Shown here: in pieces, positions 1,940-61,410 of the stretch
Layout of the letters: each line of letters opens with the position of its first letter
Position numbering within the stretch: the stretch's first letter is position 1
From: Mucilaginibacter gossypii
Lineage (GTDB): Bacteria > Bacteroidota > Bacteroidia > Sphingobacteriales > Sphingobacteriaceae
Reading direction: 5' to 3'
DNA: 64,000 nt
Assembly (NCBI RefSeq): GCF_900100945.1
Contig: NZ_FNCG01000003.1
Location: forward strand, 434,001 to 498,000
Notes under the pieces: generated by a model
Database searches by the model: none
Told to the model about the DNA's origin: nothing
What the model saw: the letters and a program-made list of their open reading frames with translations, nothing else
Program-made: the position numbers and the translations under genes

Positions 1940-2794
1940 TCAGACAGACTTGTTAAAAGCAGGCGGAAAAACCAGAACCGCCGATTGTTTGTCGGTGATT
2001 GCGGTTAAGGATTCACTCTGGCTAAAAAGTCTCGAAATTAAAGAATGGTGACCATGAGTCATTGCTAATACATTAGCGTGATGTGCCCGGCAATATTCAT
2101 GCAAGCCCTTATGTACGTTTTTGCCAGGTATTTGGGTACAACTGAGTCCGCGTTGGGCAAGAAACTTACTGAAGGTAACTTCCGGGACAATATCGGCAGC
2201 CACTTCATTGGACTGTACAACATGCACAACATCGAGATGAAAACCGAGCGTTTCAGATAAATCAATTAAAAAATCTATCGCCGGCAAATCAGCGGTATTA
2301 AAATCGGTTGCAAAAACGACGTATTGAGGTATATACTGTTCAGCGCCTGTCGGTAAAATCAGCACAGGTTTGACAGCCTTGCGAATAACCGCTGCTGTAT
2401 CGCTGCCCGTCAATAAGTGCTCCAGGGCGCTGTCGGACCTTCCGCCCATAATTACCATTTCAATTTCACGTTGGCCGGAAATTTCTTCTATTACATCGCT
2501 CAGGGTACCTTCGCCGTTTTTTAACTCAATATCCGGGTGGTAGTGCGGTACACTACCGGCAAGTTTTTTCAGATGATCGGCTTCGCGACTTAATCTCTCC
2601 CTGGCATCGGCAAACAGCATGCTCGTGGTTTCTGTTACATAAGGACCCGCAGTGTCACTGGGAATCAACGGAATGAACGGCAGGGTATGATACAAAACAA
2701 TGCCCCAGCCAAGCTTGGCCGAATACCTTAATGCTGCAGCCTCCGCATGTGCAGCGTTCGGTGAAAAATCCGTGAGAACCAGTAGCTTTTTCAT
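1940..2794 (-). CDS. universal stress protein, two tandem UspA domains
   Basis: The 284-residue protein contains two UspA modules (about residues 1-148 and 155-280). The first opens MKKLLVLTDFSPNAAHAEAAA, the usual beta1-loop-alpha1, and ends with the strand KPVLILP. The second starts YVVFATDFN and ends SAVLVFPP. The segment GGRSDSALEHLLTGSD resembles the nucleotide-binding loop of ATP-binding Usp proteins. Such tandem proteins are cytoplasmic stress or starvation factors, often induced by low oxygen. It is the first of three Usp genes in the first 9 kb. No clear operator was found upstream. Confidence 0.88.
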   Translation of the reverse strand: MKKLLVLTDFSPNAAHAEAAALRYSAKLGWGIVLYHTLPFIPLIPSDTAGPYVTETTSMLFADARERLSREADHLKKLAGSVPHYHPDIELKNGEGTLSDVIEEISGQREIEMVIMGGRSDSALEHLLTGSDTAAVIRKAVKPVLILPTGAEQYIPQYVVFATDFNTADLPAIDFLIDLSETLGFHLDVVHVVQSNEVAADIVPEVTFSKFLAQRGLSCTQIPGKNVHKGLHEYCRAHHANVLAMTHGHHSLISRLFSQSESLTAITDKQSAVLVFPPAFNKSV

Positions 2795-3094
2795 TTGAAT
2801 CTTAATTTAAGTGCTGTGATTGTACATGTGTTTTCGCATTTTTTATGCTTCGTCTGCAGTTTACCGCAGGCGGTTATTATTAAAGGTAACCTGCGCGGTC
2901 GCTCCTGGTTGACAGGTTTTTTAAGTCAATCAAATGTATTTACGCGCAGTTTGATTATAAATGATGATCAGCATTAAAAAAAATGATATTCAGCGTAACA
3001 CAATGATGATGTGAGCAAAGTTATCTATTTGGATGATGGGGGTCATTGTTACCGGTTTGTAACTATGTTTAATTTGGGCTTGAAAGAGACAAAT
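2795..3094. other. intergenic region, about 300 bp, divergent promoters expected
   Basis: This gap lies between the start of the Usp gene (minus strand) and the truncated stub at 3095. It is AT-rich towards its right end. I see a loose dyad TTGAC-N11-GTCAA around 2909-2929 and a small palindrome around 2961-2976, but no motif shared with the other operators of the island and no convincing open frame. It should hold the promoter of the Usp gene. Confidence 0.4.
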
Positions 3095-3253
3095 ATGGCT
3101 ACAACGCCCAACCCGGAAATTCGTGAGATAATCAATACAGTGCATTACCGCGCTTGGCTATCCATGAAAACCCGTATCAATTCAAAGAATGAATTCGCCA
3201 ATACAGTCAGAGTTGCTGCCGATAAAGCAAAAGCGGAATTGTGCAGCTGTTAA
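3095..3253 (+). pseudogene. N-terminal stub resembling a baeRF-type (release-factor-like) protein
   Basis: The 52-codon frame reads MATTPNPEIREIINTVHYR and continues with KNEFANTVRVAADKAKAEL before a stop. From memory, this matches the N-terminus of Bacteroidota proteins of the archaeo-eukaryotic release-factor-like (baeRF) group, in which NPEI-x2-IIN-x-VHYR is followed by a hydrophobic S-I-I-x-PFEP strand and a K-x-E helix. The hydrophobic strand appears to be deleted here and the other 300 or so residues are missing. The frame ends 17 nt before the HtrA-like gene. It is best read as a gene remnant left by a deletion, though a small real gene cannot be excluded. Confidence 0.4.
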
Positions 3254-57574: not shown

Positions 57575-57942
57575 ATTCCACATCGTTTCTGTTAAGCAAT
57601 TGCGGTTACGTGCCGTTTTAATTACCCGGAATATATCCGAACTTTAACGGGTAGCCCGTCTAATGGAAAACTACAAAGGTATTTCTATTATCACTGTAAA
57701 TTCTTATGCGGTTAGTTAAGTTTGTTAGGGTATCCTTACCAAAGGGGGCAGCCCCTATTACGGGGTATAAAGCCGCATTAGAAAGTAAGGCGATTTTTTT
57801 TATTAGGTCATTCATCCGTGATAATACCATAAACGACGAAACAAAATCACGCTACTACCACAAAAGTAACTTGTTTTTTTCGTTTATCTTACAGGAAAAC
57901 ATTTTTATGATCCCATGATTTGTATGGGGCAATATTGTAAAT
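57575..57942. other. 368-bp intergenic region
   Basis: Apart from a small hairpin (ACGGG-TAG-CCCGT, 57647-57659) nothing is recognised. A 70-codon frame at 57706-57918 shows no domain and is not called. Confidence 0.4.
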
Positions 57943-60900
57943 TTGGGACACTCCTTACACTTATCAAATAATTTGAATCCGGATATATTCCATGTTAACT
58001 TATCCCATGTGGCTGCCATGGCAACCCTGTTTTCGGGTTTTACGCTTGCATTGCTTTTAGCTTTCGCAAAAAGACAAGGCCAAAGAGCTAATCTGTTTTT
58101 AAGTGTCGCTTTAACTGTAATTGTACTGAAGACTGGCGGGCTTTCGCCGTTTTTTTTACCGGCGCTGGGACCGTTGTTGTATCTTTATGTACGGCAACTA
58201 ACATCTCCCAACCTGAAATTTAACCGAAATGATCTCCTTCATTTTTGCCCCATGTTGGTTACATATTGGATACCGGGATGGCTGGTGCTAATATCTGTTG
58301 TTATTTATTTATACATGTCGCACCGGTTGATCCAGCAATTTTATAAACGCTTGCAGCCAACACTAATGGATAGATCGCGGCTTACCTTCCGCCCATTGGA
58401 AAAAACCATTTACTTGCTCGGGTTGCTTTGCGTGTTATGGCTGTTTAACGACGCTTTGAGTTTTATCGTTGCTTTTGTACTCATTGGTGTGGCGGCCGAA
58501 GTGATGCTAAAATTAGATGATGGCACAGAAATGGCCATGCCGCTAACCGATAGATATATCGCAAGGGAAAAAAGCCGCAGACTAAAGGAAGCTGTAGCCT
58601 CAAACCGTTTTTACGAGGATGCCGAATTAACGTTAACCACCCTGGCCATAAAGTTGAATATCCATCCGCACGATTTATCACGGATCATTAATGTGGGAAT
58701 GGGCAAGAACTTCAACGACTTTATTAATGAGTTCAGGGTTCGTGAAACTGCCCGGAAGATGAGGGACCCCGCACACGCCCATCTCACGTTACTGGGAATA
58801 GCCTACGAGTCGGGGTTTAACTCCCAGAGAACCTTCAACCGCGTTTTCAAAGAGATGACCGGCAAAACCCCGGCGGAATATAAAAATAGCCTAAAAAAAG
58901 AGTTGCCAAATGATAAGTTGGCCATTCTCTCACACTTACAGCCGGTAATATTGCGTTCAGGAAGCCCACCCAATTGGGCTTCTGTAATATTAAACCGCAA
59001 TTATATGTTTAAAAACTATTTAAAAATAGCGCTTCGCACGCTGGCCAAGCAAAAGACATTATCGTTCATTAACATATTTGGCTTGTCTGTTGGAATAGCC
59101 TGTTTCAACCTATTCATGCTTTATGCTATCAATGAATTTAGTTTTGATGGGTTTCACAAAAATGCTGCTAACACTTACCTTGTTTTAGACAAAAATGGGA
59201 AAGAAAACGTAAAGGCACTTGCAGGAGTCATTTATACTCCTATGCCCCTGGGGCCTGCCATGAAACAGGAACTGCCGGGAGTAGAGAATTATGTCCGTTA
59301 TATTCAGCCTTATGAAACATTTATAAAAATAAAAAATGACGCGAGACGGGAGAATATTGCTTATGCCGATTCCTCGTTCTTCAATGTGTTTTCGTTTAAA
59401 TTTAAATACGGGAATGCCAAATCGGCTATCAGTGGTTTGCACAGCATGGTTTTAACCGAAGAAACCGCTAATAGGTTATTTGGTAAAACAAATGCCATTG
59501 GTCAATCATTCCAGGTAAAGATTGGCGATGTGTTTGAAACTTTTACAGTTACGGCTATAGCAGCAAATCCGCCATCTAATTCTTCCTTCCAATACAGCAT
59601 GCTTGCCAACTTTGATTGTTTTGGTAACACAAAATCAGGGAAAATGGGCGCACATGACTGGTGGATGAATATATTTGTCACCGTGGTTCAGCTAAAGCCC
59701 GGAAGCAAACTGGCGAATAACAACAAGTTGCTGGCAAATTTCTGGCACAGGCATTTTCCAGATGCAGGATCAGGCGGGTATAACCTGGTGCCAATCAGGG
59801 ATGTGCATACAAGCCCGGCGTTGATGGGTATTAAGGTCCCGCCTGTCGATCCAAAATCGATTTGGATATTACTAAGTATCGCTGCCGGTGTATTATTAAT
59901 CGCCTGTATTAATTTTACAACGCTTTCCATAGGCCGTTCAGCAAACCGCGCAAAAGAGGTAGGCGTCCGCAAAGTTATTGGCGGCACCAAAAAGGCTTTA
60001 GTAGTTCAGTTTTTAACAGAATCATTTTTGCTTGCTGTCTTTTCGACGCTGATAGGCCTCGCACTTGTATACCTGCTTTTGCCATACTTCAACCAATTGT
60101 CAGGCAGGGAGCTGAGTTTCTCTTTTAAGCAATTTCCACAGTTGACCGGCCTTATTGCCGGCTTAATACTGATTGTTCCCCTGCTCTCAGGATGCTACCC
60201 GGCGTTAATATTGTCAGGCTTTAATACGGTGGACGCGTTGAAGGCTAAAATTAAGTTAGGCGGCGCGAATTTTTTCACAAAAGCATTAGTCACTTTTCAG
60301 TTTGTACTTTCCGCAGTGCTGATTGTTTCTGCTATAATCATCATGCAGCAGTTACACTACATGGAATCAAGAAATCCTGGTTTTAGTAAAGAGAATGTAC
60401 TTGTTGTGCAAACATTCGGCGTTCCGGATACTAAACATCTATTCCAGCTTTTTAAACAGGAAGTTTCCGGCCATCCCGGTGTTTCGGTTTTAGCCAGCGC
60501 CGACAACGGCCTAGGTGAACATGAGGGGACCGGTTTTACAGATTTTAGTTACCAGGGTAAGTCTATTAATACAAAGCAATTTCACGTCGACGCCAACTAC
60601 ATACCTACATTGGGAATGCAACTGGTTGCAGGAAGAAATTTTAACCCGGCAATTACTTCGGATACTGTGAACGCAGTGATCATTAATGAATCTATGATGA
60701 GGGAATTAGGATGGAAGCCTGAAAACAGTACTGGTCGCCAATTGGAAGGCTATGGGAAGCTTGGCTTTAAAAACCCTACGGTGATAGGCGTGGTTCGTGA
60801 TTTTAATTATGAGCCTCTTACAGATCGTGTAGCACCGGTCTTGTTTCATCAGTTCGCCAGAAACTCTGGAGGTCTTAATTTGTTTTATGTTCGCCTGCAG

Positions 60901-61410
60901 CCGGGTAATCCGTCGAAGGCTTTGGCAGCAGTACAATCGGCTTGGAAAAAGATTGTACCCGATTACCCTTTAGAATATAATTTTCTTGACGAAGATATAA
61001 ACCGGTTCTTTAAAGCAGAAACCAGGTTGGGAAATATTATTAGCTGGATTGGTGGAATCGCTATCTTCCTGGGATGCCTGGGCCTGCTGGGGCTTTCAGC
61101 GCTTGCAGTTGCCAATCGCACCAAAGAGATCGGCATCCGCAAAGTGCTGGGGGCATCCGTTTCAGTTATCATCGGCCTTATTTCAAAAGATTTTTTAAGG
61201 CTTGTTGTATTAGCTTTATTCATTTCAACTCCAATTACGTGGTGCTTAATGAACAAATGGTTGCAGGCCTATGCATACAGGATAACTATTGAATGGTGGT
61301 TTTTTGGCATAGGTTGCATGGCAATCATTGTTGTGGCATTGCTTACCGTGTGTTTTCAGGCGATTAAAGCGGCCATAAGTAAACCGGTGAAGAGTTTGAG
61401 TACAGAGTGA
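57943..61410 (+). CDS. AraC-type HTH regulator fused to FtsX/MacB-type permease
   Basis: The 1155-residue frame has hydrophobic segments in the first 190 residues, a double-HTH AraC domain (about 215-320, LTTLAIKLNIHPHDLSRIIN and GIAYESGFNSQRTFNRVF) and a linker. From M355 it is a full MacB-type permease: FKNYLKIALRTLAKQKTLSF, periplasmic domain, FtsX helices, second half with ANRTKEIGIRKVLGASVSVI. The start is a TTG at 57943 or the ATG at 58018. M355 is where a stand-alone permease of 801 residues would begin. The linker DNA contains a hairpin (58961-58982), as if two genes with an intergenic terminator had merged. No ABC ATPase is adjacent. Confidence 0.82.
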   Translation: MGHSLHLSNNLNPDIFHVNLSHVAAMATLFSGFTLALLLAFAKRQGQRANLFLSVALTVIVLKTGGLSPFFLPALGPLLYLYVRQLTSPNLKFNRNDLLHFCPMLVTYWIPGWLVLISVVIYLYMSHRLIQQFYKRLQPTLMDRSRLTFRPLEKTIYLLGLLCVLWLFNDALSFIVAFVLIGVAAEVMLKLDDGTEMAMPLTDRYIAREKSRRLKEAVASNRFYEDAELTLTTLAIKLNIHPHDLSRIINVGMGKNFNDFINEFRVRETARKMRDPAHAHLTLLGIAYESGFNSQRTFNRVFKEMTGKTPAEYKNSLKKELPNDKLAILSHLQPVILRSGSPPNWASVILNRNYMFKNYLKIALRTLAKQKTLSFINIFGLSVGIACFNLFMLYAINEFSFDGFHKNAANTYLVLDKNGKENVKALAGVIYTPMPLGPAMKQELPGVENYVRYIQPYETFIKIKNDARRENIAYADSSFFNVFSFKFKYGNAKSAISGLHSMVLTEETANRLFGKTNAIGQSFQVKIGDVFETFTVTAIAANPPSNSSFQYSMLANFDCFGNTKSGKMGAHDWWMNIFVTVVQLKPGSKLANNNKLLANFWHRHFPDAGSGGYNLVPIRDVHTSPALMGIKVPPVDPKSIWILLSIAAGVLLIACINFTTLSIGRSANRAKEVGVRKVIGGTKKALVVQFLTESFLLAVFSTLIGLALVYLLLPYFNQLSGRELSFSFKQFPQLTGLIAGLILIVPLLSGCYPALILSGFNTVDALKAKIKLGGANFFTKALVTFQFVLSAVLIVSAIIIMQQLHYMESRNPGFSKENVLVVQTFGVPDTKHLFQLFKQEVSGHPGVSVLASADNGLGEHEGTGFTDFSYQGKSINTKQFHVDANYIPTLGMQLVAGRNFNPAITSDTVNAVIINESMMRELGWKPENSTGRQLEGYGKLGFKNPTVIGVVRDFNYEPLTDRVAPVLFHQFARNSGGLNLFYVRLQPGNPSKALAAVQSAWKKIVPDYPLEYNFLDEDINRFFKAETRLGNIISWIGGIAIFLGCLGLLGLSALAVANRTKEIGIRKVLGASVSVIIGLISKDFLRLVVLALFISTPITWCLMNKWLQAYAYRITIEWWFFGIGCMAIIVVALLTVCFQAIKAAISKPVKSLSTE
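58961..58982 (+). other. hairpin inside the linker of the AraC-FtsX gene
   Basis: GAAGCCC and GGGCTTC pair perfectly around an 8-nt loop and encode the GSPPNWAS part of the linker, 23 nt before the ATG of M355. No U tract follows. It could be a relic terminator, or an element affecting internal initiation. Confidence 0.5.

Follow-up and report, generated by a model that had tools for sequence, protein, structure and literature searches.

A single open frame of 1155 amino acids (57943-61410, + strand) in the Mucilaginibacter gossypii genome joins an AraC-type regulator to a permease of the MacB/FtsX kind. It lies in a 64,000-nucleotide stretch of DNA, referred to here as the window, and raises the question of whether its two halves are made as one chain, as two proteins, or as both. 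The reading favored here, with a probability of roughly 0.6, is a tethered one-component regulator carrying an orphan-type permease: an old fusion whose spacer-derived joint would still be functional and would hold a translation start at M355.

Domain Architecture and Start Codon

The N-terminal half contains an HTH_18 domain (PF12833) at residues 234-315 that scores 53.3 bits against a Pfam cut-off of 33.6 and places it in the AraC/XylS family. A second AraC-family model (PF00165) reaches 32.6 bits in the window protein against a cut-off of 26.6. The window HTH also matches AraC domains in the PDB by sequence, and the model of a relative, L060, matches them weakly by fold (best E 3.0e-3). Downstream of the HTH, Pfam identifies two MacB_PCD and two FtsX stretches. 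The original prediction of an AraC regulator and a MacB/FtsX permease in one frame is borne out by the open frame and by the Pfam domains on both sides, and the gene very probably encodes a membrane-bound AraC regulator joined to a membrane permease and made as one chain (Table 1).

In the AlphaFold model of L060's AraC half, seven long helices are followed by the HTH and then by a low-confidence linker (mean pLDDT 68). A full-length structure model (pLDDT 45) was set aside, and a fold search with the seven-helix model returned no match with E at or below 0.001. Several loop segments that the seven-helix domain has in the other class are missing from the window's AraC class (A4).

Table 1. Features of the fusion gene and its surroundings in window coordinates.
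Feature	Position	Strand	Basis
AraC-permease fusion gene, likely true extent	57973..61410	+	TTG start, 1145 aa; Pfam domains
Promoter-like -7 element TAAATTTG	57938..57945	+	Aligns with TAnnTTTGGAAC-like block upstream of relatives
Membrane sensor-like domain, loop-trimmed 7-helix class	57973..58560	+	L060 AlphaFold model; alignment A4
AraC-type HTH_18 DNA-binding domain, residues 234-315	58642..58887	+	Pfam PF12833
Joint/linker, residues 319-354, conserved as DNA	58897..59004	+	Same-codon ratio
Joint stem-loop	58950..59001	+	Outer and inner arms
Ancestry switch zone, residues 350 to 363	58990..59031	+	Changepoints versus three relatives
M355, candidate internal permease start	59005..59007	+	Invariant Met, start-like context
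Duplicated FtsX/MacB_PCD permease half, ADOP-like	59005..61410	+	Pfam; TIGR03434

The permease half resembles the acidobacterial duplicated orphan permeases (ADOP, TIGR03434). It matches positions 5-803 of the 803 in that model at E 1.7e-88, shares the duplicated layout, and likewise has many paralogues per genome. ADOP genes are called orphans when no ATPase gene lies alongside. A Pfam scan of the nine ORFs neighboring the window gene found no ABC ATPase, which makes it an orphan in this sense; the adjoining genes encode a polyphosphate kinase, a Ppx/GppA protein, a flavoprotein, and a TonB receptor. Unlike ADOP, the window chain carries an AraC half, and its score of 297.6 bits falls below the curated cut-off of 622.

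At the aligned start position, 100 of 109 fusions, the window gene among them, have TTG, while five have GTG and only two have ATG. The upstream TTG at 57943 sits within a promoter-like TANNTTTG element (57938-57945), so called by its likeness to the Bacteroidota -7 consensus. Because TTG prevails at the aligned position and 57943 falls inside this promoter-like block, the real start of the gene is probably the TTG at 57973 (residue 11) and not that at 57943.

Distribution and Age of the Fusion

The window's own genome holds six fusions, and the five besides the window gene are full-length and show 35-40% identity. It also encodes about 31 further permeases, for about 37 duplicated permeases in all. 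In a search of 61 genomes of the genus, with 11 candidates scored per genome, many had one or more fusions among the matches listed; at least four (G024, G030, G037, and G053; best E 7e-9 to 1e-7) had none among those matches. The collection compared here comprises 127 fusion frames from genus loci and two named records. Five of these are second copies (overlapping or identical records), leaving 122 distinct fusions, nearly all from one genus. Sets of 103 and 89 fusions were obtained by thinning by joint identity (88%) and full length, and A1 comprises 83 of the 103. Because the joints are homologous, counts over them do not represent independent events.

In a family sample of 151 genomes from 25 genera, the joint was recovered at E 1e-60 or better in 15 genomes and five genera; a merger present in five genera is old. 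Among 296 genomes sampled across the phylum, the joint-spanning single-frame matches among the best rows listed came from the window's own genus, and the remaining rows listed were mainly separate AraC-type or permease frames. A genome from a different family in this sample also contained a fusion of the window's class that is broken (L154:752-2707), a possible case of horizontal transfer.

An artefact of sequencing or assembly is scarcely credible as an explanation, as is a merger that is recent and private. Nothing beyond a first impression speaks for either, and both are refuted by full-length fusions across many genomes of the genus and in those five genera. A stop codon in the linker of homologues was also sought, and none of the frames examined is split there. 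Among the collected fusions this absence arises by construction, because a fusion was defined as one open frame with both domains. The independent check is provided by 45 frames with the HTH only: three directly precede a permease frame, and all three are broken within the HTH and none in the linker. At the level of sequence, comparison with relatives establishes the fusion.

Reassortment of the Two Halves

The two halves almost certainly reassort at the joint, and repeatedly, to judge from identities, trees, and changepoints. Between the window gene and L032, the AraC halves are 77-91% identical and the linkers 83%, and the permease segments are 15-48% identical. Against L060, whose AraC half belongs to another class, identity is 29-59% as far as the linker and then 82-91% in the permease. 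In 20-row trees, the window's AraC half groups with L032 and L070 (SH-aLRT 99) and its permease with L060 and L031 (SH-aLRT 100). The changepoints lie at residue 363 against L032, 350 against L060, and 349 against L031. By this comparison of sequences, the window gene is a mosaic, one such chimera of AraC and permease halves.

Across 89 fusions (3916 pairs), identity in the AraC half does not correlate with identity in the permease; the Spearman coefficient is 0.026, which permuted labels reached in 81 of 300 cases. The nearest relative by AraC half is also the nearest by permease in just 13 of 89 fusions, and in 64 of 89 the permeases of a fusion and of its nearest AraC relative share less than 45% identity. 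Some linkage is left among close relatives, because 99 of the 192 permease pairs that are at least 60% identical also have AraC halves at least 60% identical, compared with 24% overall.

Pairs with alike AraC halves (at least 68%) and unlike permeases (below 45%) place the switch at the joint: of 157 such pairs, 104 change between residues 360 and 370 and 151 between residues 320 and 400. Such reassortment was not part of the original prediction. Fifteen such pairs lie inside one genome, against 6.7 expected. Changepoints of permease-sharing pairs were uninformative, being dominated by the conserved HTH or by within-permease variation (58 of 93 beyond residue 400). Fused and stand-alone permeases are interspersed, and a FastTree permease tree of 89 fused and 30 stand-alone sequences requires 24 changes between the fused and unfused states. 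The best match is a fused permease for 17 of 48 stand-alone frames (34 distinct) and a stand-alone permease for 14 of 127 fused ones.

The Joint as Nucleic Acid

The joint looks constrained as DNA or RNA, beyond the protein level. The same-codon ratio measures codon sharing where relatives share the amino acid, relative to the expectation from codon usage. It is 1.75-2.25 over codons 321-351, compared with about 1.0-1.6 for most of the gene (mostly 1.15-1.5 in the AraC half and 1.0-1.2 in the permease). The peak of 2.25 falls at residues 321-335, where amino-acid conservation is just 0.47, and a second rise, to 1.92, occurs at the 5′ end of the gene. Third-position differences exceed the mean of the other two positions by a factor of 1.23 in the linker, compared with 2.06 in the sensor, 2.94 in the HTH, and 3.38 in the first permease codons. 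Comparison of the junction among relatives, the check proposed with the original prediction, yielded 122 distinct fusions and showed a linker conserved as DNA and only weakly as amino acids.

The linker is 33 amino acids long in 93 of the 122 distinct fusions, and the stand-alone relatives L063-L066 terminate 2 to 7 residues past the HTH model. The proposal that two genes merged over a former spacer fits, because linker substitutions are closer to non-coding ones and L063-L066 end just past the HTH. The merger is neither recent nor private, as its spread in the family indicates. On these sequences, the best reading is an old fusion in which the former intergenic spacer survives as an in-frame joint.

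The linker does contain the perfect hairpin originally described as 7 bp, with a length of 8 perfect pairs (GAAGCCCA, 58961-58968, and TGGGCTTC, 58975-58982) and an additional pair of outer arms (ATTGCG, 58950-58955, and CGCAAT, 58996-59001). Taken alone, this perfect hairpin is only mildly unusual: of 1220 control windows 105 nt long, 18 have a perfect arm of at least 8 bp, as do 9 of the 122 distinct joints. It was rejected as an intrinsic terminator, since no T-run follows it by eye.

Folding of the whole joint relative to dinucleotide shuffles is stronger evidence. The mean z is -2.29, with 57 of 103 joints under -2, compared with means of -0.65 to 0.05 at eleven control offsets within these genes. 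Since most joints show excess folding, the hairpin is no relic peculiar to this gene. Relative to synonymous recodings of the same peptides, the mean z of the joints is -1.46, with 90 of 103 below 0, compared with -0.69 to 0.10 at six control offsets.

RNAalifold with default settings gave no consensus structure for 83 joints, so that one RNA fold common to all joints was rejected and the claim is limited to a class-wise stem-loop. A named 21-pair structure was derived from the consensus of the 83 joints and is formed in 75.6% of cells, compared with 32-43% when slid. Its double-sided cells number 67 against 46.1 in shuffles (0 of 500 reach it), and its covariation score also exceeds all 500 shuffles, which ignore relatedness. 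The number of pairs changed on both sides is not raised (10 versus 10.5 in shuffles). In class 1 joints, the window's type and ten in A1, stems are kept in another register.

Searches with a covariance model built on the joint yielded 59 matches, spread over 10 genomes with none in G026, and all 59 fall in fusion genes when coordinates are compared by eye. The news from this search is the lack of other strong matches, because many matches belong to the model's own training set, it recovers 4 of 6 own-genome fusions and misses 2, and it scored 150 of about 2200-3100 first-look candidates per genome.

These results bear on a simpler account, in which the gene is a plain fusion made as one chain, M355 is an ordinary Met, and the DNA conservation of the joint is a by-product of recombination or gene conversion that often crosses it, with no role in RNA or initiation. 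The strong reassortment at the joint agrees with this account, as does the missing RNAalifold consensus, and crossovers close to the first codons of the permease, which are conserved, would preserve Met355 as well as the likeness of the joints. Folding beyond synonymous recodings argues against it, as do the double-sided cells and covariation score, subject to the neglect of relatedness in the shuffles. Taken with the start context described below, it is distinctly less probable than not, and a joint that retains a function is preferred.

M355 as a Candidate Internal Start

Position 355 is Met in 122 of 122 distinct fusions, and the two other Met-majority columns in the permease half reach 62 of 89 and 29 of 89. 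The protein from M355 begins MFKNYLKIALR. The prediction that the permease starts there as stand-alone permeases do agrees with 48 aligned stand-alone frames (34 distinct). With a start matrix built on the contexts of 33 stand-alone permeases, scores are 6.59 for joints, 5.73 for those starts, and -6.22 for internal ATGs. A matrix from 107 independent starts gives 3.32 for joints, 3.06 for stand-alone permeases, and -3.38 for internal ATGs. The M355 context lies at percentile 99.6-99.9 of internal ATGs, and 83% of joints exceed their 95th percentile. Against AT-matched internal ATGs, 28% of joints exceed the 95th percentile, compared with 43% of real starts.

Among the results of a Flavobacterium study, A at -3, -6, -12, and -13 and A as the first base of the start codon are favorable, and T at -3 is unfavorable (PMC6847099). 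The bases before M355 are A at -6 in 92% of joints, at -12 in 97%, and at -13 in 88%, and T at -3 in 72%. Internal initiation at M355 is therefore plausible yet unproven, with favorable A at three positions but mostly T at -3, and the chance that M355 is used as a translation start appears about even. The T at -3 favors the plain fusion, and Met355 could also be conserved because swaps cross over there; the start-like context counts against the plain fusion, since it holds with an independent set of starts.

The same context is relevant to an account with two products, in which translation seldom runs through the AraC part and M355 serves as the main start of a mainly separate permease under a shared promoter. 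It would suit the prevailing TTG of the upstream start, given the favorable effect of A-first starts in the Flavobacterium study (PMC6847099), and M355 is an ATG in a start-like setting. No stop separates the halves, however, such that ribosomes translating the AraC half enter the permease in frame, and linker length is mostly kept. This account is improbable. The original alternative of either one chain or a separate permease from M355 need not be exclusive, and both products may be made, because no stop precedes M355 and its context is start-like.

The Upstream Region and a Candidate Operator

A strict palindrome, CCGnAC-N5-10-GTnCGnT, occurs in 47 of 109 regions upstream of fusions, compared with 18 of 2560 random windows. 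A second palindrome pattern is present in 41 of 109 and lies 113-116 nt ahead of the aligned start. The regions upstream of 66 of 109 fusions also match a TTTGGA block, versus 112 of 2560 random windows. For a related palindrome pattern, 22 loci were fetched from ten genomes: 16 lie before fusions, three before AraC-less permeases (L133, L134, L140), and three elsewhere (L139, L146, L147). The upstream palindrome is a candidate AraC operator. A form with a GTTACA-like tail had no match in the window's own genome, and a shorter pattern had one. The window's own palindrome, in the upstream region 57820-57945, is degraded, so that this copy may have lost its own control.

Proposed Mechanism and Relation to Known Systems

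The product is envisaged as one long chain with seven membrane helices, a cytosolic AraC-type domain, a short linker, and a permease of which two large domains would lie in the periplasm. Tethering of the regulator makes sense topologically, because both halves are membrane proteins and the HTH would have to be cytosolic. A signal at the helices or the periplasmic permease domains would alter DNA binding in this membrane-tethered one-component regulator, probably at the palindrome found before many family members; that the helices or permease sense a signal for the HTH is a tentative proposal, somewhat less likely than its converse. The joint, once an intergenic spacer, would have retained a stem-loop and the start at M355, and part of the permease is probably also made alone because the joint kept both features. 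Because copies have the joint and the first permease codons in common, recombination at this site has repeatedly placed one kind of AraC module before different permeases.

A more speculative and rather unlikely extension is that the AraC module, promoter, stem-loop joint, and start context together form an exchangeable expression site for swapping permeases. If so, each swap would give a new sensor-permease chain plus free permease within a shared operator network, and the cell could rewire which permease reports to the regulon.

BceAB-BceS flux sensing uses a permease with a large extracellular domain as the sensor and signals to a separate kinase. The window family is similar in that a permease is the proposed sensor for gene control; it differs in that the DNA-binding domain would be covalently attached. 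The stand-alone 7TM-AraC regulators of Bacteroidota (L063-L066) have a similar sensor and HTH architecture and are 27-29% identical to L060's AraC half, but have neither joint nor permease.

To our knowledge, no role has been assigned to duplicated permeases of this type, which occur in dozens of copies in such genomes. Two Dyadobacter genomes are described in a published report as having 28 and 33 annotated orphan permeases (PMC11573002). The transmembrane transcription regulators (TTRs), one-component proteins enriched in Bacteroidota, combine a DNA-binding domain and membrane helices in one chain (PMC10269533). The window family has this layout, with helices taken from the L060 model, and differs in that a whole permease follows the DNA-binding domain in the window gene. 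The main text of the TTR paper contains "AraC", "permease", and "FtsX" 0 times and "transporter" once, in a reference title. Literature searches aimed at such fusions or permeases showed no recognized description of them.

A family whose permeases are covalently linked to DNA-binding domains, and whose halves are exchanged independently of each other, suggests that some of these permeases are signal receivers and not only pumps. An in-frame joint that evolves like RNA or DNA offers a concrete example of a one-time spacer that may remain active within a gene's coding region.

Related Permeases outside the Window

The same genome contains 18 permeases of this superfamily arrayed in tandem (G000:C27:128116-174670), none with an AraC half in its frame; in eight of the 18 rows, the matched stretch is interrupted by in-frame stops. 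Short repeats resembling AATGAnnTAATGACC occur in the intergenic spacers of this array (L007-L030, before stand-alone starts), and several of its permeases (L015, L019, L021, L027) are preceded by a palindrome resembling CCTCCCCTTTGGGGAGG.

By eye, the extra N-termini of L133 and L022 resemble that of an anti-sigma factor, a reading that was set aside, with no Pfam hit and a BLASTP E of 2.0 against a FecR. These N-termini represent a second, unrelated module of about 115 amino acids fused in frame to such permeases (L022:1177-1520, L133:1653-2000, and L140), and those of L022 and L133 are 63% identical.
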